A stretch of DNA of 64,000 nucleotides from Acidisoma silvae (GTDB lineage Bacteria; Pseudomonadota; Alphaproteobacteria; Acetobacterales; Acetobacteraceae), in the NCBI RefSeq assembly GCF_020618775.1, contig NZ_JAESVB010000004.1, positions 186,001 through 250,000 of the forward strand. Direction: 5' to 3'. Positions 47,551 through 64,000 of the stretch are shown piece after piece. Positions within the stretch are counted from its first letter, which is position 1; every line of letters begins with the position of its first letter. Below the pieces are notes generated by a model that ran no database searches, had not been told where the DNA came from, and saw only the letters and a list, made by a program, of their open reading frames with translations. A program made the position numbers and the translations under genes.

Positions 47551-48579
47551 TCAAAAACCCAGCACCTGCGCGGTATCCGGGTCCACCGGCACGCCGTCGC
47601 GCAGGCGCTGTTCCACCACCTGCCATTCACGGTCGCCCGGGGCCATCGCAGGCGGCGCGCCGTCGCGCTGGGGCGACGCGCGCAGCGCATCCAGATAGCG
47701 GCGCATGCCCAGCGCCATCTCCGTGACGCCAGCGAAGCGCGCCGGGTCGATGGCGATGAAGAAATGGCCGAGATTGGCGGGCTTCGCCGGGGTTGAGGCG
47801 CCGAGCGAGGCCAGATCATGGTCCAAAGTCGCGCCCGTCAGGACGGCGGACAGCAGGGTCGCGAGCCCGGCCAGGGCCGCGCCCTTAAACCCGTAATCGG
47901 CACCGCCCATGGGCATGAGCGTGGTGGCCTCGGCCGGATCCCGCACCGGGTTGCCATCGCCATCGACGGCGATGGCTTCGGGCAGCGGATGCCCCAGCGA
48001 GCGGTAGAGCAGCACGCGATTGAAGGGGATGGAGGAGGTCGCCATGTCCATCAGCCAGGGCTTTTCGTCCGGCACCGGGGCGGCCACCGCCAGCGGATTG
48101 GTGCCGTGAAAGGCGTCCCGCCCGCCAAACAGCGTCACTAGGCTTTCCGCATTGGTCGTCGCCAGGCCGATCATGCCGGCCTCGGCGGCGGCCAGGGCAT
48201 AGGCGCCGGCGGCACCGAAATGGGACGAGCCGGTGGCCCCCACCGCGCCGATGCCGCTGTCGCGCGCCAGGTCGACCGCGAGCTTCATCGCCTCGTAGCT
48301 AGTGTGATGGCCAAGCCCGTTATCGCCGTCCAGCATGGCGGTGGCGGCGGCGGTCTTGCGTATTTTGATCTGCGGGCGGCCGTTGATCTCCCCCGAGCGC
48401 AGCGGCCCATAATAATACCCGACCAGCCGCACGCCGTGGCTGTCGACCCCGTGCAGGGATGCGTGCATGAGCGCGCGCACGGTATGGGCAGAGGACGCGG
48501 CATCCGCCCCGGCTTCCGTCAGTTTCTGCTGCACGCGCGCGGCCAAAATATCGGCCGGCACGATGATCGGAGCTTTCAT
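47551..48579 (-). CDS. Ldh family oxidoreductase (malate/ureidoglycolate dehydrogenase-like)
   Basis: The 342-residue protein belongs to the LDH2/MDG2 fold that binds NAD(P) without a Rossmann fold. Signatures seen: HGVDSHGVRLVGYYYG near residue 45, TGSSHFGAAGAYALAAAEAGMIGL and FHGTNPLAVAAP. Members include malate and ureidoglycolate dehydrogenases and delta-1-piperideine-2-carboxylate reductase, acting on 2-oxo or 2-hydroxy acids. The substrate is not determined, but the gene is divergent from rutC, so a role in the last, carboxylic-acid steps of the neighbouring catabolic cluster is plausible. AAGGA lies eight bases before the ATG. Confidence 0.85.
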   Translation of the reverse strand: MKAPIIVPADILAARVQQKLTEAGADAASSAHTVRALMHASLHGVDSHGVRLVGYYYGPLRSGEINGRPQIKIRKTAAATAMLDGDNGLGHHTSYEAMKLAVDLARDSGIGAVGATGSSHFGAAGAYALAAAEAGMIGLATTNAESLVTLFGGRDAFHGTNPLAVAAPVPDEKPWLMDMATSSIPFNRVLLYRSLGHPLPEAIAVDGDGNPVRDPAEATTLMPMGGADYGFKGAALAGLATLLSAVLTGATLDHDLASLGASTPAKPANLGHFFIAIDPARFAGVTEMALGMRRYLDALRASPQRDGAPPAMAPGDREWQVVEQRLRDGVPVDPDTAQVLGF

Positions 48580-48767
48580 CCCGCAATCCTTGGTCTTCTC
48601 TCTGTGCAGGATAGCGCCAGCCGGGCGCGCAGACCAAGGGGAGAGGGCAGCCGGGCTCCATCACCCATTTTGTGCGCATTTGTCCATGCCCGCGCGCGGG
48701 GGCGCGCGTAGAATGGCGGCCATTGTCACGGCGATACAGGGTCGTGGCACGGAAAAGGGACATCGCT

Positions 48768-49169
48768 ATGAACGAAGCCATCAATCCGCCGGGCTGGCTG
48801 CCGGGAAAGACCGCCAATGGCACGCTGCATCTGAACTGGGGCGTGAAGGCCGGCAACCATGTCTATGTCGCGGGCATGCTATCGCTGGACCCCTATGACG
48901 GCAGCCTGGTCGGCCTTGGCGACATCACCGCGCAGACGCGCCGCGTGCTGGACAGCATCAAGGAAGTGATCGAACTGGCCGGCGGCACCATGGCCGATGT
49001 CACCTTCAACCAGATCTTCCTGCGCAGCATGGACGACTATCACGCCATGAACGCGGTCTATGTCGAATACTTCAAGGAATTTCTGCCCGCGCGCTTCTGC
49101 CTGAAAGGCGAGATGGTGAAGCCGGAATTTCTGGTGGAAATCGCGACCACCGCCGTCATCACCCGCTGA
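48768..49169 (+). CDS. rutC: RutC family protein (aminoacrylate deaminase-type Rid protein)
   Basis: The 133-residue trimeric Rid-fold protein resembles E. coli RutC strongly: AQTRRVLDSIKEVIELAGGT, then ADVTFNQIF, PARFC and LVEIATTAVI. The Rid-defining Arg109 (PARFC) and Glu124 are kept, so enamine/imine hydrolysis is expected. In the Rut pathway RutC acts on 3-aminoacrylate or its precursor, giving malonic semialdehyde. The start at ATG 48768 has AAAAGGGA upstream. It is divergent from the Ldh-family gene and ends at a bidirectional hairpin; the other Rut-like genes lie 5-9 kb downstream. Confidence 0.88.
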   Translation: MNEAINPPGWLPGKTANGTLHLNWGVKAGNHVYVAGMLSLDPYDGSLVGLGDITAQTRRVLDSIKEVIELAGGTMADVTFNQIFLRSMDDYHAMNAVYVEYFKEFLPARFCLKGEMVKPEFLVEIATTAVITR

Positions 49170-49179
49170 GTTTTGCGGC

Positions 49180-49220
49180 AAAGGCTGGGCCGCCGCACGC
49201 CGTGCGGTGGCTCAGCCTTT
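49180..49220. terminator. Bidirectional terminator between rutC and araC-type gene
   Basis: Nineteen bases (49180-49198) pair with 49202-49220 with two wobbles and only three loop bases. AAA and TTT flank the stem ends. It separates the convergent rutC and AraC-family genes. Confidence 0.65.
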
Positions 49221-50032
49221 CAGGCCGCCAGAACGCGCGGGCAGCCGCGATAGCCGGACGGCGATATGCCGAAGACATCCTTGAAGATGCGGCTGAAATA
49301 AGCGGAATCGCTGAATCCCCAGCGGAAGCAGATCGCCGAGATGGACTGCGCCGCGTAAAGCGGATCGCGCAAATCCTCGCCGCAGCGTTCCAGCCGGCGG
49401 CGGCGAATGAAGTGATTGGCATTCTCCCCCGTCGCCTCGAAAAGCTGCTGCAGATAGCGCAGCGAAATGCCGGCATATTGGGCGACCAATGCCGGCGACA
49501 GGTCGGGGTCGGACAGATGCAGCTCGATCACCTGCATGGCGCGGAGCGCGATGGCGTTCTTGGCGGCAGAGCCGTTGAGCACACGACCGGCAACGGCATG
49601 AGCGGCAATGGCCGCGGCCAGGAACTCCACCAGCGACAGTGCCAGCGGCCGCATCTCGGCGTCCGTCAGCCGGTCGCCCCGTTCCACGGCCTCGCGCAGA
49701 AGCGCGGCCAGAAAGACAGTGCTGGCCTGGCGGGGCGGCAGCACGACCAGCGCCGCCGCCATGGGGTGAGAGGCCAGGCGCGCGCCGCTGGCCTGGCGTG
49801 GAAAGACGGCGGCCTGGATTGTCAGGTCATCGCTGTCGGCAATCGTCAGCCGGCGGCCGATGCGCACCGCAACGAGGTCACCGGCTTTGACGGTGACGCT
49901 GCTGCCGTCCATGTCGAGCCGCGCTTGGCCTGTGGCAATCCGCAGCAGGCAGAAGCCGCCCGCGTGGCCTGACCAGACCTGCGGCATCGCGCCATCGGAC
50001 AGGCGCAGGTCTGCGAGCGACAGGCCGTTCAT
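49220..50032 (-). CDS. AraC family transcriptional regulator
   Basis: A 270-residue regulator with an N-terminal cupin-like sensing domain (GFCLLRIATGQARLDMDGSS) and a C-terminal double helix-turn-helix over about 165-265 (LVAQYAGISLRYLQQLFEAT and ISAICFRWGFSDSAYFSRIF), the AraC/XylS signature. It overlaps the end of the ABC permease gene by four bases, so it is the last gene of the seven-gene operon that begins with the RutA-like enzyme. It probably senses a pathway substrate. Confidence 0.88.
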   Translation of the reverse strand: MNGLSLADLRLSDGAMPQVWSGHAGGFCLLRIATGQARLDMDGSSVTVKAGDLVAVRIGRRLTIADSDDLTIQAAVFPRQASGARLASHPMAAALVVLPPRQASTVFLAALLREAVERGDRLTDAEMRPLALSLVEFLAAAIAAHAVAGRVLNGSAAKNAIALRAMQVIELHLSDPDLSPALVAQYAGISLRYLQQLFEATGENANHFIRRRRLERCGEDLRDPLYAAQSISAICFRWGFSDSAYFSRIFKDVFGISPSGYRGCPRVLAA

Positions 50033-50967
50033 TTCTGGCCGCGCAAGAACGGAAGACCGATTTCACCCGGGCCGGTCTTGCCTTTGCCCATCAGCACCCA
50101 GGCCACCAGCGCCAGCACGAAGGGCGACATCAGCAGAAGCGGCGGCGGAATGGACAGGCCGATGGCCTGACCCTGGTATTGCAGGGCATCCGCACAGCCG
50201 AAGAGGATGGAGGCCGCCAGGATCCAAAGCGGGCGCCAGCGGCTGAAGATGACGACGGCAACCGCCAGATAGCCGCGTCCCCCGGTCATATTATCGACGA
50301 AGACGCCGCCCGAGGCGACGATCGTCAGATAGCCGCCGCCAAGCCCGGCGCAGAGGCCGGTGAAGGCCATGGCCCCGAAGCGGAGCGCGGTGACGGAAAC
50401 CCCGGCGGCATCCGCCGCCCCGGCACCTTCGCCGACGGCGCGGATGATAAGGCCGAGGCGGGTGTATTTCAGCATCAGGCCCAGCACCACGGCCAGCAGC
50501 ACGGCGCCGTAGAAGACCGGGCTTTGCATGAAGAAGGCGCGGCCGATGATCGGCCAATGATCCAGAACCGGAATGCGATAGATGGAAATGGCGCGCAACG
50601 ACGGCGCGTTGTAGCTCGGGTTCAGCACCTCCTGCCGCAGCAGGGACGTGGCGCCGAGGGCCAGGATATTGAAGCCGATGCCGATGACGATCTGGTCGGC
50701 GCGCAGCAGGGCGACGGCCAGCGCCAGAATTGCGGCGGCGCCCAGGCCCCACAGCGCGCCGCTCAGCAGGCCGATCATCGGCACATTGCTTTCCTGCAAG
50801 CCCAGCACGGAACCGAAGGCGCCGAACAGCATCAGGCCTTCCAGCCCGATATTGAGCACGCCGGCGCGTTCGGAGATCAGCTCGCCGAGGGAGGCGAGCA
50901 GCATCGGCGCGCTCAGCCGCACGGCGGCGGCCAGAAGAAGCGAAATGGTGATGGGATCGAACGACAT
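50029..50967 (-). CDS. ABC transporter permease (nucleoside/BMP type), second subunit
   Basis: The 312-residue membrane subunit, starting MSFDPITISLLLAAAVRLSAP, has LGELISERAGVLNIGLEGLM, a signature of the YufQ/NupC-type permease of nucleoside and BMP-family importers. Eight or more hydrophobic helices are visible. The ATG shares its T with the previous gene's stop region (TAATG), so translation is coupled. It pairs with the permease at 50967-52049, the ATPase and the BMP-type binding protein. Confidence 0.9.
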   Translation of the reverse strand: MSFDPITISLLLAAAVRLSAPMLLASLGELISERAGVLNIGLEGLMLFGAFGSVLGLQESNVPMIGLLSGALWGLGAAAILALAVALLRADQIVIGIGFNILALGATSLLRQEVLNPSYNAPSLRAISIYRIPVLDHWPIIGRAFFMQSPVFYGAVLLAVVLGLMLKYTRLGLIIRAVGEGAGAADAAGVSVTALRFGAMAFTGLCAGLGGGYLTIVASGGVFVDNMTGGRGYLAVAVVIFSRWRPLWILAASILFGCADALQYQGQAIGLSIPPPLLLMSPFVLALVAWVLMGKGKTGPGEIGLPFLRGQK

Positions 50968-52049
50968 TACTTGCGGCCCTTCACCAGCCGGAAGCCCTGA
51001 ATGGTGGCCAGGAACAGGATCGGCAATCCGCTCATGATCATCGCCATGGCGGAGGGAATGCTCAGCACGCTTTGCAGCGCGATCGTGCCGCTGTTGATGG
51101 CGCCGAAATAGAGCGCGACGATGACGGCGCCGAGCGGCTCCAGCCCGCCCAGCAGGGCGACGGCCAGACCGTCGAAGCCGAAATCGGAGCTGAAACCCTC
51201 GATCAGCCGGTATTGCACGCCCAGCACTTCGATCGCGCCGCCGACACCGGCAATGGCCCCGGAGATAAGCATGGAGGACAGGATCAGGCGGGACAGGGGC
51301 ATGCCTTGCAGGCGCGCGGCGCGCGGGCTGAGACCGGCGGCGCGCAGACGAATGCCGAAGGTGCTGTGATAGAGCAGAAACCACAGCAAGGCGGCGGTCA
51401 CGACGGCGATGACGGCACCCAGATGCAGGCGCGTGCCCGGCAGCAGCAACGGCAGCTGCGCGGCATTGGCGATCTTGGCGGACATATTGAAGTTGGAGCC
51501 GGCAGGTTGCAGCGGCCCTTCCACCAGATATTTGACGAAATAGATGCCGATGAAATTCATCATCAGCGTGACGATGATTTCATTGGCGCCGCGCCATAGT
51601 TTCAGCACCGCCGGGATCAGGCCCCAGAGGGCGCCGAAGATGGCGCCGGAGATCAGAGAAATCGGCAGCAGCAGCAGGCCGAGGGAATGCGGCAGCATCG
51701 TCGCCGGCAGAACGGCACCCACGGCACCGAGCTGCAACTGGCCTTCCGCGCCGAGGTTATAGAAACCGCAGCGGATGGCGATGAGGGCGGCGAGCGCGGT
51801 CATCAGCCGGGGCGTCATGAAGACCAGCGTATCGCCAATCGCCATGCGCGACCCGAAGGCCCCGTTGATCATGACGGAGAGAGCCTGCCAGGGAGAGACG
51901 CCGAGGGCGGCCAGGATCAGCAGACCCACCGCGAGGCTGGCCGCGAAGGCGATGATGACGACCAGGGCATAGCCCTGGGTCAGTTTCCGCGCGGCCTCGT
52001 TGATGCGATCCGGCCAGCCTGTCTTGGTTTCGGTGATGGTCGCGGTCAA
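50967..52049 (-). CDS. ABC transporter permease (nucleoside/BMP type), first subunit
   Basis: A 360-residue membrane protein of the YufP-like branch. It contains AIRCGFYNLGAEGQLQLGAV and GANEIIVTLMMNFIGIYFVKYL, both characteristic of permeases that work with BMP-family nucleoside-binding lipoproteins. About ten hydrophobic helices. It overlaps the ATPase gene by four bases. Confidence 0.9.
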   Translation of the reverse strand: MTATITETKTGWPDRINEAARKLTQGYALVVIIAFAASLAVGLLILAALGVSPWQALSVMINGAFGSRMAIGDTLVFMTPRLMTALAALIAIRCGFYNLGAEGQLQLGAVGAVLPATMLPHSLGLLLLPISLISGAIFGALWGLIPAVLKLWRGANEIIVTLMMNFIGIYFVKYLVEGPLQPAGSNFNMSAKIANAAQLPLLLPGTRLHLGAVIAVVTAALLWFLLYHSTFGIRLRAAGLSPRAARLQGMPLSRLILSSMLISGAIAGVGGAIEVLGVQYRLIEGFSSDFGFDGLAVALLGGLEPLGAVIVALYFGAINSGTIALQSVLSIPSAMAMIMSGLPILFLATIQGFRLVKGRK

Positions 52050-53539
52050 TGCGCGGCGCCTCCGGTCATGAGTGCGCCGATCTCTTCGCGGGAAGCGCGG
52101 CCGTTCACTTCACCGACCGCGCGGCCGGCATAGAAAATGATGATGCGATCGCTGATGCGCATGATTTCGTCGAGATTGCTGGAAATGAACAGCACGGCGC
52201 GGCCGCCATTGGCGGCATCGCGCAGGCGGCGCAGAATTTCCTCGCTGGCCGCCACATCCAGGCCGCGCGTCGGCTGATAGACGGCGATGATATCGGCGTC
52301 CTCGTTCATGGCCCGCGCCAGCACGATCTTCTGCTGGTTGCCGCCGGAGAGAATGCGCGGCGTGACATGCACATTGCGGCTGCGGACGTCGGACGCCGCG
52401 CGCATTTCTTCGGCGCGGGCGGTGATGGCGGCATGGTTCAGGCGGCCGGCGCGCGCATAGGGCGCTTCGTCGATCTTGTTGAGCAGGAGATTGACCGCGA
52501 TCGGCAGGTCGAGAACGAGACCTTCCTGATGGCGGTCTTCCGGCACCAGCCCAACGCGGGGGCGGCCGTCGGCATGGCTTCGTCCGGCCTCGACCGTGCC
52601 GCTGTCGGGTGTCAGCGCACCGGCGACGAGTTCGAACAATTCGCGCTGGCCATTGCCTTCGACCCCGGCAATGCCGACGACTTCGCCGGCGCGCAGCGTG
52701 AGGGAAGTATCGCGCAGGCCGGAGGAGGAGGGCGTGGCCGCCACCGAGACGTTCTGAAGGCTGAGCCGCACGGCGCCGGGCGCTTCGCCCGTGCCGTCCA
52801 GCGCGGCCGAGAGATCGACCTCATGCCCCACCATGTCGCGGACGAAATCCTCCCGCGCGCGGCCGGCGACGGGGCCGGAGCTGATCAGCTTGCCGCGCCG
52901 GATGACGGAGGCATGCTGCGCGTGATCCACAACCTCGTTGAGATGGTGCGTGACGACGACGACAGCCCGGCCGGCTGCCGCGATCTGCCTCAAAACCTTG
53001 TAGAAGGCAGCGATTTCGGCCGGGTTCAGAATGGTTGTCGGCTCATCGAACAGGACCAGCTCGGCCTTGTTGATGAGCGCCTTCAGAATTTCCACGCGCT
53101 GCTGCAAGGACAAGGGCAGGGTGGAGACGATGGCTTTCGGGTCGATGGAAAGACCAAAACTATCCGCGAGCCGGGCAATATCGGCATTGCGGGCAAGGCT
53201 GGGGCGAATGGCGGGCGGGGCCGCCAGACGCAGGTTCTCAGCCACCGTGAAGGTCGGCACCAGTTTGAAATGCTGGTGCACCATCCCGATACGGTTGGCG
53301 ATGGCGTCCGCCGGAGAGCGGTGAATGACTTCACGGCCCTCCAGCAGAATGCCGCCCATATCGGGCTGATACATGCCGAACAGGATGTTCAGCAGGGTGC
53401 TTTTGCCAGCCCCGTTCTCACCCAGGATGGCGTGGATTTCACCGCGGCGGAAGGCGACCGTGACATTGTCGAGAACAGGATGCCCCGGCGTGAAAGCCTT
53501 GGTGATAGCGGTGAGGGTGAGATAAGGGTCTGGCGGCAT
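52046..53539 (-). CDS. ABC transporter ATP-binding protein with two nucleotide-binding domains
   Basis: A 497-residue fused ATPase of the sugar/nucleoside (RbsA, YufO) type. Domain 1 has Walker A GENGAGKST (40-48) and Walker B LVLFDEPTT (161-169), but its signature is the reduced LSLQQ (143-147). Domain 2 has a degenerate Walker A (GVEGNGQRE) and a good signature LSGGNQQK. Such asymmetry is normal for this family. It energises the two permeases downstream and the binding protein upstream, with overlaps of 4 bases and a gap of 9 bases. Confidence 0.92.
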   Translation of the reverse strand: MPPDPYLTLTAITKAFTPGHPVLDNVTVAFRRGEIHAILGENGAGKSTLLNILFGMYQPDMGGILLEGREVIHRSPADAIANRIGMVHQHFKLVPTFTVAENLRLAAPPAIRPSLARNADIARLADSFGLSIDPKAIVSTLPLSLQQRVEILKALINKAELVLFDEPTTILNPAEIAAFYKVLRQIAAAGRAVVVVTHHLNEVVDHAQHASVIRRGKLISSGPVAGRAREDFVRDMVGHEVDLSAALDGTGEAPGAVRLSLQNVSVAATPSSSGLRDTSLTLRAGEVVGIAGVEGNGQRELFELVAGALTPDSGTVEAGRSHADGRPRVGLVPEDRHQEGLVLDLPIAVNLLLNKIDEAPYARAGRLNHAAITARAEEMRAASDVRSRNVHVTPRILSGGNQQKIVLARAMNEDADIIAVYQPTRGLDVAASEEILRRLRDAANGGRAVLFISSNLDEIMRISDRIIIFYAGRAVGEVNGRASREEIGALMTGGAAH

Positions 53540-53548: not shown

Positions 53549-54535
53549 CTATTCAACGGAAACTTGGTTCTTTCCGATCTTGCTCATCAGATCGAAAATC
53601 TTCGCCTGCACGCTGGCATCGACGTGACGGAAGGGGGTCGCCATGGTCCAGCCGTCATTCGACAGATCCATCGTGTAGATAGAGCCGTTGAGCTTACCTT
53701 CGGTGAAGAACTGGCCCATCTGGTCATAGGCTTTGTTGAAGTTCAGCACCGTGCTGGTGACGACCGCGTCCGGATAGTCCTTGCTCTGATCCATATAAGA
53801 CCCGATCGTGAAGGCCTGATTTTCTTCCGCTGCCTGCTGCGTGCCGACATCGGCCAGGTCAGCGGAGGGGATCAGAACATCGACGCCGCGCGCGATGACG
53901 CCGGTCGCGATTTCCTTGGCCTTCGCGATATCCGTGAAGGAGCCGACATAAACGGTGTCGACCTTGATATCCGGCACGAGGGACTTCGCACCCTTGACGG
54001 TGAATTCAACCGCGCGCTTGGCGGAGGGAATTTCTTCACCGGCGATGATGGCGATATGCTTGGCCTTGCTGGACGCAGCGGCGGCGGCACCGGTGACGAA
54101 GCCGTACTGATCCCAGTTGACGGACCAGGCGGAGTAATTCTTCAAGCCGGCAGTGTCAGAGGCATAGCTGTAGAGAACGAACTGGGTGTTCGGATATTCC
54201 TTGGCCACTTCCTCGATCGCCGCCGAAAAGCCGGAGCTGTGGCAGATGATCATCTTCACGCCGCGACCGGCCATTTGGCGCAGAATGGAGGGGGCCGCCT
54301 CATAGGTCGCGTTATCGACATAGGAGGGTTTGAAATTGTATTTCTTGGCCATGGCCGTGAAGGCGGCATAGCCCGGCGGATCCCAGTTGCCCTGGGTCAC
54401 ATTGCCGCTGAACAAGCCGGCGACCTCGATCTGGTCGGCGGCAAAAGCGCGCGAGCTGCCGATGGTGGCGCCCGACAGAACAGCCGTACCGAGAGCCAGG
54501 CCCACGAAACGGCGACGATCAATGGTATAGGTCAT
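53549..54535 (-). CDS. BMP family ABC transporter substrate-binding protein
   Basis: A 328-residue periplasmic protein of the BMP/PnrA-like group, which usually binds nucleosides or related heterocycles. The N-terminus DRRRFVGLALGTAVLSGATI has a twin-arginine-like motif and signal sequence with cleavage near AFA-AD at about residue 33. Later segments (SGFSAAIEEVAKEYPNTQF, GFVTGAAAAASSKAKHIAII) match the family. It has no lipobox cysteine, so it is soluble. Its position between the Rid/RutA genes and the ATPase links its ligand to the pyrimidine-like chemistry of the cluster. Confidence 0.9.
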   Translation of the reverse strand: MTYTIDRRRFVGLALGTAVLSGATIGSSRAFAADQIEVAGLFSGNVTQGNWDPPGYAAFTAMAKKYNFKPSYVDNATYEAAPSILRQMAGRGVKMIICHSSGFSAAIEEVAKEYPNTQFVLYSYASDTAGLKNYSAWSVNWDQYGFVTGAAAAASSKAKHIAIIAGEEIPSAKRAVEFTVKGAKSLVPDIKVDTVYVGSFTDIAKAKEIATGVIARGVDVLIPSADLADVGTQQAAEENQAFTIGSYMDQSKDYPDAVVTSTVLNFNKAYDQMGQFFTEGKLNGSIYTMDLSNDGWTMATPFRHVDASVQAKIFDLMSKIGKNQVSVE

Positions 54536-54613: not shown

Positions 54614-55006
54614 TCAGACCTTGTCGGGAATCATCACGACAAGATCGATTTCGAGCAGCAGGTCGGCATCCGCCAGACCGGCGACATGGATGAAGGTGCT
54701 GGCGGGCAGTTCGACACCGTCGAAGAATTTCAGCCGTCCGCGATGGATGGCGGGCGCGAAGCCGGGATCGGTGACATAGGTCACCGTCTTCACGATATCG
54801 TCCGGCGTCGCACCAAGGCCCGCCAGCATCAGGCCGATATTCTTGTAGGTCTGGGCGACCTGGGCATCGATATCGCCCGCGCCGACCACCGCGCCATTCT
54901 CATCCCAGGACACCTGACCGGTCGGGAAGACCGGCGTGCCTTGGCGGATCTTGGCGTGGTTGTAGTAGCTTTGCTGCTTCAGCCCGGTGGGGTTGATGAC
55001 GGTCAT
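54614..55006 (-). CDS. Rid-family protein lacking the RidA arginine
   Basis: A 130-residue YjgF/Rid-fold protein (VFPTGQVSWDENGAVVGAGD, then PDDIVKTVTYVTD). Where RidA and RutC have the substrate-carboxylate arginine in PAR, this protein has PAS (Ser103), so it is of a divergent Rid subfamily and may act on a different intermediate. ATG 55006 follows a GGTGGG site by eight bases; a GTG at 55015 overlapping the previous stop is an alternative. It is five bases after the RutA-like gene and surely co-transcribed with it. Confidence 0.86.
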   Translation of the reverse strand: MTVINPTGLKQQSYYNHAKIRQGTPVFPTGQVSWDENGAVVGAGDIDAQVAQTYKNIGLMLAGLGATPDDIVKTVTYVTDPGFAPAIHRGRLKFFDGVELPASTFIHVAGLADADLLLEIDLVVMIPDKV

Positions 55007-55011
55007 TCTAT

Positions 55012-56279: not shown

Positions 56280-57197
56280 CTATGCAAGGCCGCGTGGCGA
56301 ATCGACGGCCGCCCGAAAGGATTTTACGACGCGCTTCAAAAACTCGGCGGCGGCGTAGGATAGACGGCGGTCACGATGAATGCAGACGGCCGAGGTGGCC
56401 GAGGCGAAATCCGGGTCCGAAATCGGAATTGCCTTCAGCCGGCCTTCGCGCAGTTCCTTGCGCAGCGCCAGGGCGGGCGCGACGGTCAGCGTCTTGCCGG
56501 TCAGCGCCATGGCCTTGGTCATTTCCAGATGGTTGGTGGAGACCAGGATATCGGGGGTCAGCCGCTGCTTGGTAATGGCCTGATCGATGAACTGGCGCAG
56601 GCCGAAGCTGGCGACCGGCAAGGTAATCTGCTGGCTGCAAACCTCTGCCAAGGTCACGCTCTCCCGGTCCGCGAAGGGATGGGACGGATGGGCGATGCAC
56701 ATCACCGGCTCGGTATATTGCGCGGCGACTTCGATAGAAGGGCGCGGCTTGACGTTGAAAACGATGCCGATTTCGGTCTCGTCGCGGATCAGCGCCTCGA
56801 TGATGCGGTCGGACGACTCGGAATAGACCGAGAATTTGATGGCCGGGAATTCCTCGTTGAACTCCGAAATGGCACGGGGCAGGAAGTCGACCAGCAGGCC
56901 CTCGATCACCCAGATCTTTACCTCACCCAGGCGCAGGCCCTTCATATTCTTGATGCTTTCCTGGACGCGCTCCAGGTCGCGGAACATGTGGCGGGTATAG
57001 CGCTCCAGCACCAGGCCGGCGGGTGTCAGCTGAATGCCGGTATTGGTGCGTTCCAGCAGCAGGGAGCCCAGCATCCGTTCCAGAATGGCGATCTGCCGGC
57101 TGATGGCCGAGGGGGCCACATGCAGCCGGTCGGCCGCGCGGCGAATGGAGCGCGTTTCCGCCACCTCGTTGAAATAGCGATAGGCGCTCAGATTCAT
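56280..57197 (-). CDS. LysR family transcriptional regulator of the Rut/Ten-like cluster
   Basis: A 305-residue regulator: helix-turn-helix in residues 1-60 (YFNEVAETRSIRRAADRLHV, then SAISRQIAILERMLG) and a substrate-binding domain after 90. It belongs to the branch with RHMFRDLERVQESIKNMKGL linker seen in alphaproteobacterial regulators of catabolic genes. It lies upstream of the RutA-like gene on the same strand and is divergent from the RutD-like gene, and both targets have the same 17-bp dyad, so it is the likely regulator of both arms. Confidence 0.88.
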   Translation of the reverse strand: MNLSAYRYFNEVAETRSIRRAADRLHVAPSAISRQIAILERMLGSLLLERTNTGIQLTPAGLVLERYTRHMFRDLERVQESIKNMKGLRLGEVKIWVIEGLLVDFLPRAISEFNEEFPAIKFSVYSESSDRIIEALIRDETEIGIVFNVKPRPSIEVAAQYTEPVMCIAHPSHPFADRESVTLAEVCSQQITLPVASFGLRQFIDQAITKQRLTPDILVSTNHLEMTKAMALTGKTLTVAPALALRKELREGRLKAIPISDPDFASATSAVCIHRDRRLSYAAAEFLKRVVKSFRAAVDSPRGLA

Positions 57198-57415: not shown

Positions 57416-58204
57416 ATGCCGACAGTGCAGGTTCGGGGCGAAGAGTTCCATTACGAAATTACCGGCAGCGGGCCGACCCTGCTGCTGGTCACGGGACTGG
57501 CCGGGACCGCGTCCTATTGGAAGCCGAATGTCGAGGCGCTGTCGCGGCACTATAAGGTCATCTGCTACGACCACCGTGGCACGGGCGCCAGCGTCCGCAC
57601 GGAAGGCAGCTATTCGATCGAAGGGCTGACCGATGATCTGGTCGGCCTGCTGGATGCGCTGGGCGAGAAGACGGTGCTCTTCGTCGGCCATTCCACCGGC
57701 GGCGCCATCGGCCAGGTTCTGGCCGCCCGCCATCCGGATCGGGTCAGCCGTATGGTGCTGTATGCGACCTGGGCGACGCTCTGCCCCCAGATGGCGCTGG
57801 CCATGGAAATGCGGGTGAAGCTGCTGAAGGCCTTTGGCCCGGCCATGTATCACCGGGCCTCGCCGGCCTTCCTGTTCCCGCCGCGCTATGTCTGCGAGAA
57901 TTGGGCGGCGATCGAGCCCGCGCTGGCCCGCAATGCCGAGCTATCGACGACGCCGACCATTCTGGAAGCGCGCGTCAATGCGGTGACATCCTTCGACGGC
58001 CGCGCCTATCTGCCCGATATCCAATGCCCGACCTTGGTGCTGGTGGCGCGGGACGATAATCTGACGCCGCTGGAATCCTCGGAAGAACTCGCCCGTGGCA
58101 TTCCAGGCGCGGAATTGCAGGTTCTATCCTATGGCGCCCACGCCGTCTCGCAGACCGAGCCGGAGGTCTTCAACAAGGCGGTGCTGACCTTCCTCGCTTA
58201 TTGA
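57416..58204 (+). CDS. RutD-like alpha/beta hydrolase
   Basis: A 262-residue alpha/beta-hydrolase with CYDHRGTGAS, the nucleophile elbow GHSTGG with Ser93, acid in ARDDNLTP (Asp213 or Asp214) and His242 (YGAHAVSQTEPE). Overall shape and the ASPAFLFPPRYV lid segment resemble RutD, which speeds the breakdown of carbamate/aminoacrylate in uracil catabolism. E. coli RutD has Ala in place of the nucleophile Ser, so this protein may be a true serine hydrolase, for example cleaving an amide or ester intermediate. AGGAG lies seven bases before ATG 57416. It leads the plus-strand arm of the cluster. Confidence 0.84.
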   Translation: MPTVQVRGEEFHYEITGSGPTLLLVTGLAGTASYWKPNVEALSRHYKVICYDHRGTGASVRTEGSYSIEGLTDDLVGLLDALGEKTVLFVGHSTGGAIGQVLAARHPDRVSRMVLYATWATLCPQMALAMEMRVKLLKAFGPAMYHRASPAFLFPPRYVCENWAAIEPALARNAELSTTPTILEARVNAVTSFDGRAYLPDIQCPTLVLVARDDNLTPLESSEELARGIPGAELQVLSYGAHAVSQTEPEVFNKAVLTFLAY

Positions 58205-58385
58205 GGAAGGCCAAACCGCTGGCTCTTTCCATATCGCGGGAGCGCGCCTAAGCCAGATGGATTGACCACGATGGTGATCGGGGCCAGGCCTATGCGTCCC
58301 GCTCATGGCGTGGAGAGCAGCGAACCTTACGACCGCCGCCAGGGCAGGGGCTCTGGCAGCCAGTTTACAACAGGAGGTGCTTTTG

Positions 58386-59342
58386 TTGCGTCGTTTCTTA
58401 CTGGGTTTTGCTGCTGTATTGGTCGCCGCGCCCATCGCCATGCCGAAGGCTCATGCCGCCGACCAAAAGCTGACGGTGCTGCTGGATTGGTTCGTCAATC
58501 CTGATCACGCAACGATCCTCTCGGCCGAATATTCCGGCGCCTTCAAGCGCCACGGCCTCGACGTCAAGATCATCGCTCCGGCCGATCCCAGCCTGCCGCC
58601 GCGCCAGATCGCCGCCGGCCAGGCCGACCTCGCGCTGACCTATCAGCCGCAGCTTTACCTGATGGCCGATCAGGGTCTGCCGGTCGTGCGCGTCGGCACC
58701 GTCATCAACAAGCCGCTGAACGTGCTGGCGACCATCAGCGACAGCGGCATCAAGACCATGAAGGATTTCAAGGGCAAGAAGATCGGCTTCTCGGTCGCAG
58801 GCCTGGATGATTCCGTGGTCGATACGATGCTGGAATATGCCGGCGTGTCGCCCAAGGACGTGACGCTGGTCAATGTCAATTTCGCGCTCGTCACTGCGCT
58901 GACCTCGCATCAGGTCGATGGCGTCATCGGCGCCTATCGCAATTTCGAAGTCAACGAGTTGAAGGGCATGGGCAAGACCCCCGTCACTTTCACGCCCGAG
59001 GATTACGGCGTGCCGCCGGATGATGAGCTGGTCTTCATCGCCAATAAGAAGGAAGCGCATGATCCCAAGATCACCGCTTTCCTCGAAGCGCTACAGGAAG
59101 GCACCACCTATCTGGAAGCCCATCCGGATGAGATGTGGGCTGCCTTCATCAAGCAGCACCCGGATCTGAACAACAAGCTGAACAAGACGGCCTGGTACCA
59201 GACGCTCAGCTATTTCGCGAAAAACCCCTTCACGCTCGATCAGAAGCGCTACACGGACTATGAAAAGTTCATGTACGATCACAAGCTGATCAAGACGCAG
59301 CCGCCGCTGTCCGACTACGCCATCGAATTGAAGGCGAGCTGA
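58386..59342 (+). CDS. thiY: ThiY-like (NMT1/THI5) hydroxymethylpyrimidine ABC transporter binding protein
   Basis: A 318-residue periplasmic protein with signal peptide MRRFLLGFAAVLVAAPIA cleaved near AHA-AD. The mature part shows LTVLLDWFVNPDHATILSAE, IIAPADPSLPPRQIAAGQAD and YQPQLYLMAD, diagnostic of the ThiY/THI5-like family that binds thiamin pyrimidine precursors (HMP, formylaminopyrimidine). Start: TTG 58386 (alternatively TTG 58383) is best, with AGGAGG (58372-58377) eight bases upstream; longer starts upstream lack homology. No thiamin (TPP) riboswitch is recognisable in 58205-58385, unlike many biosynthetic thiY operons. Confidence 0.88.
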   Translation: MRRFLLGFAAVLVAAPIAMPKAHAADQKLTVLLDWFVNPDHATILSAEYSGAFKRHGLDVKIIAPADPSLPPRQIAAGQADLALTYQPQLYLMADQGLPVVRVGTVINKPLNVLATISDSGIKTMKDFKGKKIGFSVAGLDDSVVDTMLEYAGVSPKDVTLVNVNFALVTALTSHQVDGVIGAYRNFEVNELKGMGKTPVTFTPEDYGVPPDDELVFIANKKEAHDPKITAFLEALQEGTTYLEAHPDEMWAAFIKQHPDLNNKLNKTAWYQTLSYFAKNPFTLDQKRYTDYEKFMYDHKLIKTQPPLSDYAIELKAS

Positions 59343-59435: not shown

Positions 59436-60152
59436 GTGGTTTCCAACATCGTCACCGGCGCCCAGGCGCCGGATTTTGATTTCGGCCTGTTCGGCCGCCT
59501 GCGCCGCGATGCCGCCAGCGAATGGTCAAGCTATATCGACCATCCCTTCATGCGTGCGCTCGGGCGCGGCACGCTGCCGCAGGCGTGGTTTCAGAACTTC
59601 CTGATCCAGGACTATCTTTACCTGATCCAATATGCCCGCGGCTATGCGCTGGCCGGCTATAAAAGCGAGTCCCTTAGTGAACTCGTCGCCGCCAACCGCA
59701 CCATGACGGCGTTGCTCGACGTCGAAATGCCGCTGCACGTCTCCTATTGCAAAGAATGGGGCATTTCCCAGCCGGAACTGGAAGGCGCACCGCCTGACCT
59801 GCGCATGACGGCCTATGCCAATTTCTTCCTGGAACGCGGCTCCTCGGGTGACCGGCTGGATCTGGAAATTGCGCTTGCACCTTGCCTGGTCGGCTATGCT
59901 GAAATCGCCCAGAACCTGCTGGCGGACCCGGAAACGGTGCTGGAAGGCAATCCTTACGCACCTTGGATCAACAGCTATTCGGGCGAGGACTATCGCGCGA
60001 CGGTCGCGCAATCGATCATCGACCTTGATGCCTTCGGCAAGCGCCGTGGCGCGGAAGCGCGCTATGCCTCGCTGCTCGACACCTTCAAGACGGCAAGCCT
60101 GCTGGAAGCGCAGTTCTGGGGCATCGGCTGGCAGGATGGGGCGGCTGTATGA
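59436..60152 (+). CDS. tenA: TenA family aminopyrimidine aminohydrolase (thiaminase II)
   Basis: A 238-residue helical enzyme with Asp59 (LIQDYLYL), Cys150 in APCLVGYAEI, Tyr154 and Glu224 in SLLEAQFWGIGW, matching the TenA active site (B. subtilis Asp44, Cys135, Tyr139, Glu205). TenA hydrolyses 4-amino-5-aminomethyl-2-methylpyrimidine to HMP and ammonia and can cleave thiamin. The GTG start at 59436 has AAGAGG nine bases upstream. It lies between thiY and thiZ, overlapping thiZ by four bases, so transport and hydrolysis are coupled. Confidence 0.92.
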   Translation: MVSNIVTGAQAPDFDFGLFGRLRRDAASEWSSYIDHPFMRALGRGTLPQAWFQNFLIQDYLYLIQYARGYALAGYKSESLSELVAANRTMTALLDVEMPLHVSYCKEWGISQPELEGAPPDLRMTAYANFFLERGSSGDRLDLEIALAPCLVGYAEIAQNLLADPETVLEGNPYAPWINSYSGEDYRATVAQSIIDLDAFGKRRGAEARYASLLDTFKTASLLEAQFWGIGWQDGAAV

Positions 60153-60889
60153 CCATCGCCGATTGTCCGGGCATCGTCATCGAAGGGCTGACGCTTCGCT
60201 TCGGTGAGCGCACTATCTTCCAGAACCTGGACCTGACGATTACCGGCGGCCAGTTCGTGGTGCTGCTGGGCACCAGCGGCGTCGGCAAAAGCAGCCTGCT
60301 CAAGATCGTCGCCGGCCTGTCCAAAGCCTCCGCCGGCACGGTGCGGGCCAGCGACGGCAAGCCGCTGCAAGGCCGTATCGCCTATATGGGCCAGACGGAT
60401 CTGCTCTATCCCTGGCTGACCGTCGTGCAGAATGTCATGCTCGGCACGCGCCTGCGTGGCGAGAAGCCCAATCTGGACCGCGCCATGGAGTTGCTGAAGC
60501 GCGTCGGCCTCGCCGAGCGCGCCAAGGCGCTGCCGATGGAACTCTCGGGCGGCATGAAGCAGCGCACGGCCATCGCGCGCACGCTGTATGAAGACCGGCC
60601 CATCGTGCTGATGGACGAGCCCTTTTCGGCGCTCGATACCTTCACCCGCTCGCGCATTCAGGAACTGGCGGCTGAATTGCTGGTCGGCCGCACTGCGCTG
60701 CTGATTACGCATGATCCTTTCGAGGCTTGCCGCCTGGGCCATCATCTGGTCGCGCTCGCCGGCCACCCGGCCGTGCTGGGCGCGCCGATTCTGGTGCCGG
60801 GCCAGCCGCCGCGCGCACCGGATGATCCGCATCTGCTCGAAACCCAAGGCCATCTGATGCGCGTTTTGACGGAGCTTGAGACAGAATGA
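60149..60889 (+). CDS. thiZ: ABC transporter ATP-binding protein, ThiZ-like
   Basis: A 246-residue SsuB/TauB-type ATPase with Walker A LGTSGVGKSS, signature LSGGMKQRTAIART and Walker B IVLMDEPFSALD. It pairs with the permease next door and the ThiY-like binding protein as an importer of the thiamin pyrimidine type. It overlaps tenA and the permease by four bases each, showing tight translational coupling. Confidence 0.93.
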   Translation: MTIADCPGIVIEGLTLRFGERTIFQNLDLTITGGQFVVLLGTSGVGKSSLLKIVAGLSKASAGTVRASDGKPLQGRIAYMGQTDLLYPWLTVVQNVMLGTRLRGEKPNLDRAMELLKRVGLAERAKALPMELSGGMKQRTAIARTLYEDRPIVLMDEPFSALDTFTRSRIQELAAELLVGRTALLITHDPFEACRLGHHLVALAGHPAVLGAPILVPGQPPRAPDDPHLLETQGHLMRVLTELETE

Positions 60890-61656
60890 CCCGTCAAACC
60901 CTCAGCAAGATTCTGCGTCCCATCGTGACGCTGGTGGTGATGATCCTGGTCTGGTGGGCGATCACCGCTTTCACCTCCCTGCCGCCCTATATGCTGCCGA
61001 GCCCGGTGACGGTGGCGCAGGCTTTGGTGGCGCAGCAGCAGACGCTGATCGGTGCCACCGCCACGACCTTCTCGGAAATCATCCTGGGTCTGGCTGCCGG
61101 CACCATCCTCGGCATGGCGCTGGCCCTCGCCATGGTCTTTTCGCCGCTGTTGCAACGTTGGCTGATGCCGCTGCTGCTGCTGAGCCAGGCGATACCGGTC
61201 TTCGCGCTGGCGCCGTTGCTGGTGCTGTGGTTCGGCTTCGGCATGGCGTCCAAGGTCGTTATGGCGGTGCTGGTCATCTTCTTCCCGGTCACCGCCTCCT
61301 TCTTCGACGGCCTGCGGCGGGTGGATATCGGCTGGCTTGATCTGGCCCGCACCATGAACGCGTCCCCCTGGGCGATGCTGCGCCATGTGCGCCTGTTCGC
61401 GGCCCTGCCGGCCTTCGGCTCGGGCCTGCGCGTGGCGACCGCCATCGCGCCCATCGGCGCCATCATCGGCGAATGGGTCGGGTCTTCCGCCGGTCTCGGC
61501 TATGTCATGATGAATGCCAATGCGCGCATCCAGACAGATGTGATGTTCGCCGCATTGAGCATCCTCTCCGTCATGGCGATTGTGCTCTGGGTCATCGTCG
61601 ACCGCGTGCTGAAGCGCATCCTGTACTGGGCGCCCGATACCATCGGCGTTCCCTGA
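60886..61656 (+). CDS. thiX: ABC transporter permease, ThiX-like
   Basis: A 256-residue membrane subunit with about six helices, an SsuC/TauC-type permease. The cytoplasmic EAA-like loop (LDLARTMNASPWAMLRHVRL) contacts the ATPase. The closest functional relatives by context are ThiX proteins of HMP/formylaminopyrimidine transporters, but the permease sequence alone does not decide the substrate; the assignment rests on the ThiY-like and TenA neighbours. Confidence 0.9.
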   Translation: MTRQTLSKILRPIVTLVVMILVWWAITAFTSLPPYMLPSPVTVAQALVAQQQTLIGATATTFSEIILGLAAGTILGMALALAMVFSPLLQRWLMPLLLLSQAIPVFALAPLLVLWFGFGMASKVVMAVLVIFFPVTASFFDGLRRVDIGWLDLARTMNASPWAMLRHVRLFAALPAFGSGLRVATAIAPIGAIIGEWVGSSAGLGYVMMNANARIQTDVMFAALSILSVMAIVLWVIVDRVLKRILYWAPDTIGVP

Positions 61657-61697: not shown

Positions 61698-63023
61698 ATG
61701 TCGCGGACAGTTATTCGCAATGGTATGATCCTGACGCTGGACGATGCCGCCACCTATTTCGAGACCGGCCGCGTTATCATCAAGGGTGACCGCATCGTCG
61801 CGGTGGAACCGGAATCCGCACCCTTCCTGGCTTTGCCGGATGACATCGTCATCGACGCCACCGACAAGGTGGTGATGCCGGGCCTGGTGGACCTGCATTT
61901 CCACACCGCCATCGGCAAGGGCTACAACGACCACATGCCGCTCTGGGAATACCTGGACGAATGCTGGTATCCGCTGATCCGCGCGCTGGACCCGGAAGCC
62001 GCCTATTGGGCGGCGGCGGCGAGCTATATGGAATCAATCAAGTCGGGTGCCACGACGATCAACGACATGTATCGTCAATTGGGCGCGCTGGCGCAGGCGG
62101 CCGAGGATATCGGCATCCGCGCCGTGCTGTCGAATGACGTGGCACTGCCCGAGCATGACCTGGACAGTCTTCAGGACAATCACGACGCCTATACGTCGCT
62201 GCATGGCCGCGCCAATGGCCGCATCCAGGTGCGTATCGGCATCGAATGGCTGCCGCTCTCCTCGGCCGATCTGCTGCGCGAAGCCCGCGCCATGGCCAAT
62301 TCGCTTGGCGCCGGCGTTCATGTCCATCTGAACGAGAGCAAGACCGAGGTCGATTTCTGCCTGGAGAAATTCGGCAAGCGCCCGACCGAACTCGCCTATG
62401 AATGCGGCCTGCTGGGGCCGGATACGGTCGCTGCCCATTGCGTCTGGCTGGATGACCGTGAAATGCAGATGATGGCGGAAACCGGCACCCATATTTCCCA
62501 CAATCCCAATTCCAACGCCAAACTGGGCAATGGCATTGCGCGCGTGCCGGAAATGGTCGGTCTCGGCATCAATGTCGGCCTCGGCCATGACGCGGTCGAG
62601 TGCAATAACAGCGCCGATATGTTCGAGGTGATGAAGTATGCCTCGCTGATGCAGCGGGCGAGCCGCGTGGATGCGACGCTGATGCCGGCTGACCAGGTGT
62701 TGCGCATGGCGACCCGCAATGGCGCGCGGGCGCTGGGGCATGAGACCGGGCAATTGACGGCCGGCGCCAAGGCCGATGTCATCCTCATCGACACCAATAA
62801 CGCCATGTTCACGCCGCTGCTGCGCGACACCGCCATGCACCTGTCCAGCCATCTTGTCTTCGCGGCCAATGGCAGCGTGGTCGATACCTCCATCATCGAC
62901 GGGCAGATCGTCATGCAGGGCCGCCGCATGACGCGCATTGACGAGGCCCAGGTGGTGCGCGAGGCCAATGCCGCCTTCCGCCGCATCAAGGACAAGATGA
63001 CAGTCGTGAGGCGCGCACAATGA
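61698..63023 (+). CDS. Amidohydrolase (TrzA/MtaD/SAH-deaminase-like), probable aminopyrimidine deaminase
   Basis: A 441-residue metal-dependent hydrolase of the TIM-barrel amidohydrolase family. Metal ligands seen: His67 and His69 (LHFHT), His210 (HVHLNESK), His247 (AHCVWL) and Asp298. The last motif reads LGHDAVECNN instead of the common LGTDGxxSNN, a notable change next to the metal-binding aspartate. Family members deaminate or dechlorinate ring amines (adenosyl-homocysteine, guanine, triazines). In this operon a 4-amino to 4-oxo conversion of an aminopyrimidine is the natural guess, but the substrate is unproven. AAGGAGA lies nine bases before the ATG, 41 bases after thiX. Confidence 0.87.
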   Translation: MSRTVIRNGMILTLDDAATYFETGRVIIKGDRIVAVEPESAPFLALPDDIVIDATDKVVMPGLVDLHFHTAIGKGYNDHMPLWEYLDECWYPLIRALDPEAAYWAAAASYMESIKSGATTINDMYRQLGALAQAAEDIGIRAVLSNDVALPEHDLDSLQDNHDAYTSLHGRANGRIQVRIGIEWLPLSSADLLREARAMANSLGAGVHVHLNESKTEVDFCLEKFGKRPTELAYECGLLGPDTVAAHCVWLDDREMQMMAETGTHISHNPNSNAKLGNGIARVPEMVGLGINVGLGHDAVECNNSADMFEVMKYASLMQRASRVDATLMPADQVLRMATRNGARALGHETGQLTAGAKADVILIDTNNAMFTPLLRDTAMHLSSHLVFAANGSVVDTSIIDGQIVMQGRRMTRIDEAQVVREANAAFRRIKDKMTVVRRAQ

Positions 63024-64000
63024 GCATTGATCTGAAAACACTGCTGGCGGCGGTCGACGCGCGCCAGGGCGAACTTGTCGATCTGCTGTGCAAGCTGGTG
63101 AGTTTCGAGACGCCGGCCCCGCCGGCGCGCAATACCGGTGCGGCGCAGGATTATATGGCGAGCTACCTGCGCGAGCTCGGCGCCGAGATCGATATCTGGG
63201 ACGTGCATCCGAATGACCCGAATGTCGTCGGCACCATCAAGGGCAGTGAACCGGCGACCCATCACAGCCTGATCGTCAACGGCCATATCGACGTCGCGGC
63301 GGTGGAGGAGGGCGAACCCTGGGAGACCGGGCCGTTTCAGCCCATCGTCCGCGACGGTTTCATCATCGGGCGCGGCACGGCGGATATGAAGGGTGGCCTG
63401 GCCGGCGCCTTGCTGGCGCTGCGCATTCTGAACGATCACGGCATCAAGCTGCCCGGCGACGTCATCTTCCAATCCGTCATCGGCGAAGAGGTCGGTGAGG
63501 CCGGCACGCTGGAATGCAACAAGCGCGGCTATACCGCCGATATGGCGGTGGTGGTCGATACCACGGACCTGCGCATTCAAGGCCAGGGTGGCGTCATCAC
63601 CGGCTGGATCACCGTCAAAAGCCCGCAGACCTATCATGACGGCACGCGCGGCCGCATGATCCATGCGGGCGGCGGTCTGTTCGGCGCCAGCGCCATCGAA
63701 AAGATGGCCAAGATCATCCAGGGCCTGGGTGAACTGGAACGCCATTGGGCGGTGACGAAGCAATATCCGGGCTGCCCGCTGGGGTCGACCACCATCAATC
63801 CGGCCGTCATCGAAGGCGGCCGCCACGCCGCCTTCATCGCCGACGAATGCCGGCTCTGGGTCACAGTGCATTACTATCCGAACGAGAATTACGCGGATGT
63901 GGTGCGCGAGATCGAGGAGCATGTCGCCGGTATCGCGGCGGGTGACCCGTGGCTGCGCGTCAATCGCCCGACCTTCGTCTGGGGGGGTACGTCGATGATC
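63020..64000 (+). CDS. M20 family metallohydrolase (ArgE/DapE/YlmB-like), 3' end outside window
   Basis: Starts MSIDLKTLLAAVDARQGELV at an ATG that overlaps the previous stop by four bases; 327 codons are in the window. Zinc ligands are visible: His in NGHIDVAAV, Asp in GTADMKGGLAG, the Glu pair in IGEEVGEAGT and a later Asp in VVVDTTD. The family covers N-acyl amino acid deacylases and the formylaminopyrimidine deformylase YlmB. The ThiXYZ/TenA context makes a deformylase or an N-acyl amide cleaving enzyme acting on a ring-opened product most likely; I cannot choose from sequence. Confidence 0.9.
   Translation, partial: MSIDLKTLLAAVDARQGELVDLLCKLVSFETPAPPARNTGAAQDYMASYLRELGAEIDIWDVHPNDPNVVGTIKGSEPATHHSLIVNGHIDVAAVEEGEPWETGPFQPIVRDGFIIGRGTADMKGGLAGALLALRILNDHGIKLPGDVIFQSVIGEEVGEAGTLECNKRGYTADMAVVVDTTDLRIQGQGGVITGWITVKSPQTYHDGTRGRMIHAGGGLFGASAIEKMAKIIQGLGELERHWAVTKQYPGCPLGSTTINPAVIEGGRHAAFIADECRLWVTVHYYPNENYADVVREIEEHVAGIAAGDPWLRVNRPTFVWGGTSMI

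Follow-up and report, generated by a model that had tools for sequence, protein, structure and literature searches.

A candidate pathway for the catabolism of vitamin B1 in Acidisoma silvae and other bacteria

Introduction

Why should relatives of uracil-degrading enzymes be encoded beside genes for the uptake and processing of the thiamin pyrimidine? This question is raised by a gene cluster at positions 47551-64000 of a 64-kb stretch of DNA from Acidisoma silvae (the whole stretch is hereafter called the window), in which RutA-, RutC- and RutD-like genes are found together with ThiXYZ, TenA, a deaminase-type amidohydrolase and an M20 amidohydrolase. Vitamin B1 (thiamin) is in short supply in many waters and influences the make-up of microbial communities; microbes are known to salvage its debris, such as formylaminopyrimidine (FAMP), hydroxymethylpyrimidine (HMP) and thiazole. 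The TenA family splits thiamin or amino-HMP. An earlier interpretation of the window from its letters and open reading frames (the sequence-only reading) had proposed that thiamin-pyrimidine uptake, TenA and a deaminase feed a Rut-type ring opening. Following up this proposal, we judge catabolism of vitamin B1 and its breakdown products to be a somewhat probable function of the locus, and our best reading is that both halves of thiamin are degraded, by a pyrimidine operon and, in a subset of genomes, also by a thiazole operon.

Results

Organization of the cluster

Open frames and profile matches (NCBIfam and Pfam) confirmed every family that the sequence-only reading had placed in the cluster, i.e., RutC, a RutA-like enzyme, a second Rid protein, a RutD-like hydrolase, ThiXYZ, TenA, the amidohydrolase and the M20 enzyme (Table 1). 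Its inventory had missed a BMP-type ATP-binding cassette (ABC) importer, the LysR and AraC regulators, a dehydrogenase-type gene and a ThiM operon, and the M20 gene runs past the window end. The contig bearing the cluster has 389,673 bases and belongs to a genome of 5.4 Mb that is 98.9% complete. Two divergent gene groups are separated by the LysR gene. The plus-strand group reads RutD-like, ThiY, TenA, ThiZ, ThiX, amidohydrolase and M20, with intergenic gaps of 100, 93, -4, -4, 41 and -4 nt in that order, and the minus-strand group reads RutA-like, Rid2, BMP substrate-binding protein, ATPase and two permeases, followed by AraC. The left end is occupied by Rid1 and a malate/lactate-dehydrogenase-type gene. 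Because of the 4-nt overlaps between TenA and ThiZ, ThiZ and ThiX, amidohydrolase and M20, and RutA-like and Rid2 (55012 to 55015), we regard the arrangement as operon-like and not as one of chance neighbours.

Conservation of the gene set

The gene set proved genuine and conserved; its order varies between lineages, its distribution is patchy and several copies are borne on plasmids. A scan of 84,980 species with the RutA-like protein retrieved 17 loci, 7 of them orthologous (70-85% identity) and 10 distant (25-30%), and the same query matched 50 records in a plasmid search, five at 60% identity or above. Full clusters were found in Pararhizobium polonicum, Rhizobium daejeonense, Rhizobium sp. 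ACO-34A, Sinirhodobacter populi and Paracoccaceae La 6. Orthologues of the amidohydrolase, 70-80% identical to that of the window, occupy 11 distinct loci (window included) in two phyla; a RutA-family gene is in the cluster at all 11, at a distance of 1.3-10.3 kb from midpoint to midpoint, and TenA and ThiXYZ are present at 10, in varying gene orders. The sequence-only reading had named lack of conservation in related genomes as grounds for abandoning the proposal, and the association proved to be conserved.

Among these 11 loci, L019 and L036 are near copies in RutA, and the counts from plasmids and Microbacteriaceae (the family of Curtobacterium) are less biased because five of the 11 came from the RutA scan itself. 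Searched with the amidohydrolase only, 3 of 72,556 plasmid records matched, all three carrying a RutA orthologue (two plasmids were typed as non-mobilizable and one as conjugative); 5 of 378 Microbacteriaceae genomes matched, all five near RutA-family genes. Four of the latter loci are new and contain TenA, ThiXYZ and a RutA-family gene, the RutA of L062 being 67% identical. The actinobacterial copies of TenA and ThiY are remote (22-33% identity); four TenA and two ThiY proteins were checked against Pfam, and all fell in the expected families. The Curtobacterium locus is a minimal four-gene operon of an NCS1 permease, the amidohydrolase, a RutA-like gene and Rid2.

Within the family of P. polonicum (394 genomes), the amidohydrolase was detected in one genome and the RutA orthologue in two, with one genome and locus common to both. 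Among the 385 genomes of the class of the window's organism, the amidohydrolase matched in its own genome only, and no RutA orthologue was found beyond that genome, four homologues at 40-42% identity being the only matches. Of the seven genomes from the RutA scan, four have the amidohydrolase orthologue at the locus, two of which also hold further homologues at 36-38%, and the other three (G386, G387 and G391) gave no genome-wide match to it at E 1e-60.

The Microbacteriaceae loci L063-L065 (~0.9-15.9 kb) additionally encode a GMC oxidoreductase, an Amidohydro_2 protein, two NtaA-type monooxygenases and two TenA-like genes. In this possible variant, ring opening would come only after oxidation of the hydroxymethyl group and its loss as CO2.

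A separate branch of RutA-like enzymes

None of the Rut-type proteins of the cluster (RutA-, RutC- and RutD-like) reaches its NCBIfam equivalog cut-off, and by this measure they are classed only as relatives of the uracil enzymes. RutB, the ureidoacrylate hydrolase of uracil breakdown, was found in none of the 12 window-type RutA loci and adjoins all five distant RutA homologues (~40% identity) that were examined, one of which had supplied the probe. At this level of identity, homologues were rejected as members of the system, those examined being located with RutB. In a tree of 22 proteins built without the long E. coli branch, the 13 window-type RutA proteins made up one side of a single branch (support 90/85, recovered in 88% of bootstrap trees), and the same set was obtained when E. 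coli RutA was included (support 84/90).

The residues of the RutA motif for O2 binding and reactivity, as given in PMC7662398 and PMC8234197, are shared: L65, T105, N134 and V136 are kept in 12/12 window-type proteins, and at position 224 all but one of them have Phe, the exception having Leu. Just after the NxV motif, positions 140, 141 and 143 are Asn, Pro and Asp in all 12 window-type proteins and in 0/6 RutB-linked ones; position 143 is Glu in 6/6 RutB-linked proteins and Ser in 4/4 members of a second Microbacteriaceae group. The natural reading of this pattern is unchanged chemistry on a different substrate, with position 143 presumably playing a role in substrate binding. Since RutB is absent and RutA forms a separate branch, the pathway is probably not one for uracil.

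Other Rut-related genes were noticed along the way. An open frame of the window at 38001-38564 looks by eye like an isochorismatase-type hydrolase (the RutB superfamily); it lies ~9 kb from the cluster and was not counted in it. On plasmid pENH92 of Cupriavidus necator (L034:13869-24368), a 60% identical RutA relative is accompanied by flavin reductases, RidA, a RutD-like hydrolase, an NMT1-type ABC importer, a VanA-type Rieske oxygenase and formaldehyde dehydrogenase, a gene set perhaps used for methoxy-pyrimidine breakdown. At L011:281-3490, a RutA homologue, RutB and a 31% identical amidohydrolase stand in succession and may form a further deaminase-fed Rut pathway.

TPP riboswitches and ThiC

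Rfam scans detected no thiamin pyrophosphate (TPP) riboswitch in the window or the adjoining 19 kb on the right, at 13 other pyrimidine loci or at four other thiazole loci (14 pyrimidine and five thiazole loci in total, with L034 and the partial L022 outside the scan). As positive controls, 2 to 5 TPP riboswitches were found elsewhere in each of the seven whole genomes searched, which did not include four Microbacteriaceae genomes; among four plasmid records, one carried two and three carried none. In the window's own genome, TPP riboswitches precede ThiD and a set ending in ThiE, within which two frames look by eye like ThiO and ThiG, the ThiG-like one having no NCBIfam match at 1e-20. ThiC was present in four of the ten other genomes searched, two with the full cluster (G385 and G388) and two with the core described below (G386 and G387), and had no match in the remaining six. 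A need for HMP would hardly explain the cluster in the rhizobia G385 and G388, because both hold ThiC together with the full cluster.

The conserved association, the separate RutA branch, the missing RutB and the lack of TPP riboswitches at the scanned clusters suggest that the pathway is probably catabolic and not for uracil. On the evidence of the rearranged conserved clustering, the missing RutB and the missing riboswitch, the central proposal of the sequence-only reading is supported; its M20 step, its amide product and its extent of the system had to be revised, as described below.

Proposed breakdown of the pyrimidine half

What could be observed directly is which genes and families are present, where genes overlap in operons, how far the set is conserved, how the RutA clades separate and where riboswitches lie; from this we infer every substrate, the order of the steps and the physiological role. 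ThiXYZ would import FAMP or thiamin, the M20 enzyme would strip the formyl group and TenA would then release HMP. All protein families of FAMP salvage (ThiXYZ, YlmB-type M20 and TenA) are present, TenA scoring just under its NCBIfam cut-off. The M20 enzyme is probably a FAMP deformylase, and is placed before TenA because it passes the NF006370 cut-off and because the counterpart in Paracoccaceae La 6, at 65% identity, carries the annotation N-formyl-4-amino-5-aminomethyl-2-methylpyrimidine deformylase. On the same evidence we rejected the late amidase role that had been considered for it. A PF03070 match on contig C18 was rejected as a second TenA, as its neighbours look by eye like pqqB, pqqD and pqqE and it is probably PqqC; a weaker PF03070 match on contig C8 scored 54 bits.

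The amidohydrolase would deaminate HMP at C4, giving a 4-oxo-2-methylpyrimidine with a uracil-like N3-C4 amide. It keeps the HxH, His, Glu, His and Asp motifs typical of its superfamily, which we take to be metal and catalytic residues, and its nearest solved relatives are deaminases and chlorohydrolases; many superfamily profiles matched it below cut-off. Its sequence is also compatible with an S-adenosylhomocysteine or adenosine deaminase.

The RutA-like flavin enzyme would then open the N3-C4 bond to yield acetamidino-acrylate. Amide hydrolysis had been envisaged after this step; on chemical grounds, opening of 2-methylpyrimidin-4-one should give an amidine and not an amide, so the RutD-like hydrolase or Rid2 would have to handle the product. 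Together with Rid1, these two proteins would take off the two remaining nitrogens. The RutD-like hydrolase keeps Ser-His-Asp, and the catalytic Arg of Rid1 is kept in 9/9 orthologues compared. The final aldehyde would be handled by a reductase: the malate/lactate-dehydrogenase-type gene (which we take to be of the Ldh_2 family) occupies here the position held in seven other loci by an aldo-keto reductase. A pyrimidine that has already lost its amino group, or a related ring, is the probable cargo of the BMP-type importer. According to PMC4433059, the Arg of Rid proteins holds the substrate carboxylate, and PMC8113886 indicates that RutC requires its Arg. Once the amidine is lost, an aminoacrylate bearing a carboxylate would remain, which would suit Rid1 because it keeps this carboxylate-holding Arg.

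A second operon linked to ThiM

The system is probably larger than the window and includes a ThiM-linked operon directly to the right of M20. Its genes encode, in order, an NtaA/DmoA-type monooxygenase, a rhodanese-type sulfurtransferase, an amidase, a HAD hydrolase, Rid3, ThiM and an AMT-family transporter, with gaps of -14, -4, -7, -4, 79 and 151 nt (the HAD start was chosen by us). All but the transporter recur, wholly or partly, in four other loci, and three of those strains hold the pyrimidine set. Specifically, the order LysR, NtaA, sulfurtransferase, amidase, HAD, Rid and ThiM is repeated at 52-84% identity on plasmid pLA6_001 of Paracoccaceae La 6, the pyrimidine cluster of which lies on a different plasmid, pLA6_003; abbreviated forms were found in Sinirhodobacter (G390) and in Microbacteriaceae genome G835, each of which has the pyrimidine cluster, and on a Pseudonocardia plasmid (a plasmid record only, its chromosome being outside the search). 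NtaA, sulfurtransferase and ThiM are found in all five thiazole-operon loci. An NtaA orthologue (at least 66% identity) is present in three of the 11 genomes holding the pyrimidine cluster or core, and also in strain La 6.

This operon probably handles degradation of the thiazole half. TenA would also free hydroxyethylthiazole from thiamin, and ThiM would phosphorylate it. The monooxygenase, the nearest solved structure to which is DszA (5tlc, E 4e-110), would open the ring by C2 oxidation and C-S cleavage to an N-formyl enamine thiol; the amidase would remove the N-acyl (formyl) group, Rid3 would act on an enamine or imine without carboxylate, the HAD enzyme would remove the phosphate and the sulfurtransferase would take the sulfur.

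In each flavin monooxygenase operon, the window's (54614-55015) and the ThiM-linked one (L004:3789-4181), a Rid protein without the Arg is encoded, and Rid1 keeps it.

Coordinates and neighbouring features

The features of the cluster and the adjoining operon are listed in Table 1. To the left of the cluster, an Rfam match to the Alphaproteobacterial small RNA ar35 (window 45869-46006) overlaps on the same strand with a small open frame (45963-46226).

Table 1. Features of the pyrimidine cluster and of the adjoining ThiM operon (positions in the window unless a locus is given)
Feature	Position	Strand	Basis
Malate/lactate/ureidoglycolate-dehydrogenase-type enzyme	47551-48579	-	Best NF011599, 203 bits, below cut-off 356
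Rid1, RutC-like	48768-49169	+	TIGR03610, 121 bits, cut-off 169; best PDB 3v4d (RutC)
AraC-family regulator	49220-50032	-	Profile match
BMP-type ABC importer, permease 2	50029-50967	-	Best putative B6 ABC permease 1, 220 bits, cut-off 465
BMP-type ABC importer, permease 1	50967-52049	-	Profile match
BMP-type ABC importer, ATPase	52046-53539	-	Profile match
BMP-family substrate-binding protein	53549-54535	-	Profile match
Rid2, Rid protein without catalytic Arg	54614-55015	-	Overlaps RutA-like stop codon by 4 nt
RutA-like flavin mononucleotide (FMN) monooxygenase	55012-56112	-	TIGR03612, 271 bits, cut-off 498.3; best PDB E. coli RutA 5wan, E 1e-70
LysR-family regulator	56280-57197	-	Profile match; between divergent groups
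RutD-like alpha/beta hydrolase, first gene of Thi group	57416-58204	+	TIGR03611, 212 bits, cut-off 238.5
ThiY-like pyrimidine-binding protein	58305-59342	+	Best PDB 3ix1 (FAMP-binding protein), E 2e-37; hydrophobic N-terminal leader by eye
TenA, thiaminase II family, Cys in APC motif	59436-60152 (alternative start 59388)	+	TIGR04306, 127 bits, cut-off 130
ThiZ, ABC ATPase	60149-60889	+	Open frame and profile match
ThiX, ABC permease	60886-61656	+	Open frame and profile match
Amidohydrolase, TRZ/ATZ/SAH-deaminase superfamily	61698-63023	+	Profile and structure-database matches; candidate HMP (4-amino) deaminase
M20 amidohydrolase, FAMP-deformylase (YlmB) type	63020-64000, on to ~64297 past window end	+	NF006370, 704 bits, cut-off 412
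ThiM operon	L004:1402-8478 (~64.4-71.5 kb in window numbering, outside window)	-	Profile matches

Discussion

Alternative explanations

Several observations weigh against B1 catabolism as reconstructed here. Some concern the uneven make-up of the loci: the Curtobacterium locus has neither TenA nor ThiXYZ, the Microbacteriaceae clusters lack M20 and BMP genes, three of them hold only a more distant RutA-family protein (~45% identity) with Ser at position 143, and eight of the 11 genomes searched have no orthologue of the thiazole NtaA (paralogues at 40-43% occur in several). A core of RutA, BMP and Rid genes occurs without amidohydrolase or Thi genes at three loci (L017, L018 and L033), and a core lacking both at the locus is seen in Rhizobium sp. 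CFBP 8762, an Acidocella metagenome-assembled genome and Pantoea sp. SOD02. Others concern the enzymes: no flavin reductase was found in the window cluster and the best RutF match of the genome is weak (74 bits), the support for the window-type RutA clade is moderate, and Rid2 and Rid3 are without the Arg required by Rid deaminases, having Ser in its place in 13/13 proteins compared for Rid2 and Cys, Cys or Leu in the three Rid3 proteins. Finally, ThiC has no match in the window's own genome.

This last point bears on ordinary salvage, in which ThiXYZ, M20 and TenA would supply thiamin synthesis with recovered HMP and the RutA part would be nearby but unrelated. The genome without a ThiC match yet has ThiD and ThiE in sets behind TPP riboswitches, and ThiXYZ, TenA and YlmB-type genes are the known FAMP salvage set. 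We nevertheless find salvage as the sole function unlikely, given that the scanned clusters are without the riboswitch, that two ThiC-bearing rhizobia retain the whole set, that the amidohydrolase and RutA-family gene remain with the Thi genes across two phyla despite rearrangement, and that the window's RutD-like gene and thiY share a strand, with thiY downstream. In A. silvae itself, salvage may come as an additional role: because its genome shows no ThiC match, the ThiXYZ, M20 and TenA part may also serve thiamin synthesis, and the organism may depend on outside HMP. A Rut-type pathway for uracil, thymine or cytosine standing beside thiamin genes by chance would agree with the presence of RutA, RutC and RutD relatives, with the NCS1 permease heading the Curtobacterium operon and with a BMP importer whose best profiles, putative B6 importers, score far below cut-off; the lack of RutB at all 12 window-type loci against its presence at all five distant homologues, Rut profile scores below cut-off throughout and the distinct residues at 140, 141 and 143 make this quite improbable. 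The pyrimidine genes might instead detoxify antivitamins such as bacimethrin without any nutritional purpose. The amidohydrolase could conceivably deaminate HMP analogues, and the RutA relative on pENH92 keeps company with a Rieske oxygenase and formaldehyde dehydrogenase, but the two importers, the deformylase-type M20, ThiM and the thiazole operon point to uptake and use, and we regard detoxification as very improbable.

A more substantial possibility, short of being probable and compatible with B1 catabolism, is that two partly separate systems are combined: a core (BMP importer, RutA-like enzyme, hydrolase and Rid proteins) for an environmental oxo-pyrimidine, and an optional feeder of Thi genes and amidohydrolase making the same compound from thiamin debris. 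The three core-only loci fit this picture (L033 is a plasmid record, its chromosome outside the search), as do the three genomes without an amidohydrolase orthologue, and since the core can stand alone it may act on some other pyrimidine. On the other hand, Curtobacterium and L062 have the amidohydrolase and RutA orthologue without the BMP importer, which is therefore not an obligate part. B1 catabolism remains our preferred account. Its fullest form, a complete, patchy and partly plasmid-borne pathway in at least two phyla that dismantles the vitamin by TenA cleavage, opens the pyrimidine with a dedicated deaminase and a RutA-type N5-peroxide enzyme and the thiazole with a ThiM-primed, DszA-like enzyme aided by the sulfurtransferase, the amidase and an Arg-less Rid, and uses the products as a source of nitrogen, carbon and sulfur, seems to us evenly poised between right and wrong.

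Relation to known systems

The sequence-only reading knew of no described pathway joining Rut-type and ThiXYZ-TenA genes, and we found no paper joining these gene sets in the open-licence literature. With the Rut pathway of E. coli (rutABCDEFG) the cluster shares a RutA-family enzyme with the O2 motif of the N5-peroxide mechanism, RutC and RutD relatives and, in several loci, a flavin reductase, but it differs in the missing RutB, the separate RutA branch, the upstream amidohydrolase, the linkage to ThiXYZ, TenA and M20, and the extra Arg-less Rid. FAMP salvage as in Bacillus (ThiXYZ, YlmB and TenA) has the same importer, M20 deformylase and TenA families; here, however, the scanned clusters have no TPP riboswitch, a deaminase-type and a ring-opening-type enzyme follow, and ThiC-bearing rhizobia have the genes. 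Cleavage by thiaminase I or II likewise involves the TenA family, and the descriptions found end at HMP and hydroxyethylthiazole or its phosphate, whereas here ring-opening enzymes for both halves seem to follow.

In vitamin B6 degradation, acetamidomethylene-succinate hydrolase (PDB 3kxp) is an alpha/beta hydrolase that acts after oxidative opening of a methylated vitamin ring; the window's hydrolase resembles it weakly (E 1e-13) and is far nearer to RutD (E 4e-36). The thiazole-operon oxygenase belongs with the NtaA/DszA/HcbA1 flavin monooxygenases by its DszA match, but its partnership with ThiM, a sulfurtransferase, an amidase and a Rid protein was not found in the open-licence literature.

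If B1 catabolism is borne out, vitamin B1 would be a food and not only a cofactor, and the B1 cycle would gain a so far missing sink in the destruction of both rings. Such a pathway would also provide new substrates for two groups of flavin enzymes (the RutA and DszA types), explain the occurrence of TenA and ThiXYZ without TPP control, and advise caution against annotating every TenA or ThiXYZ cluster as salvage.

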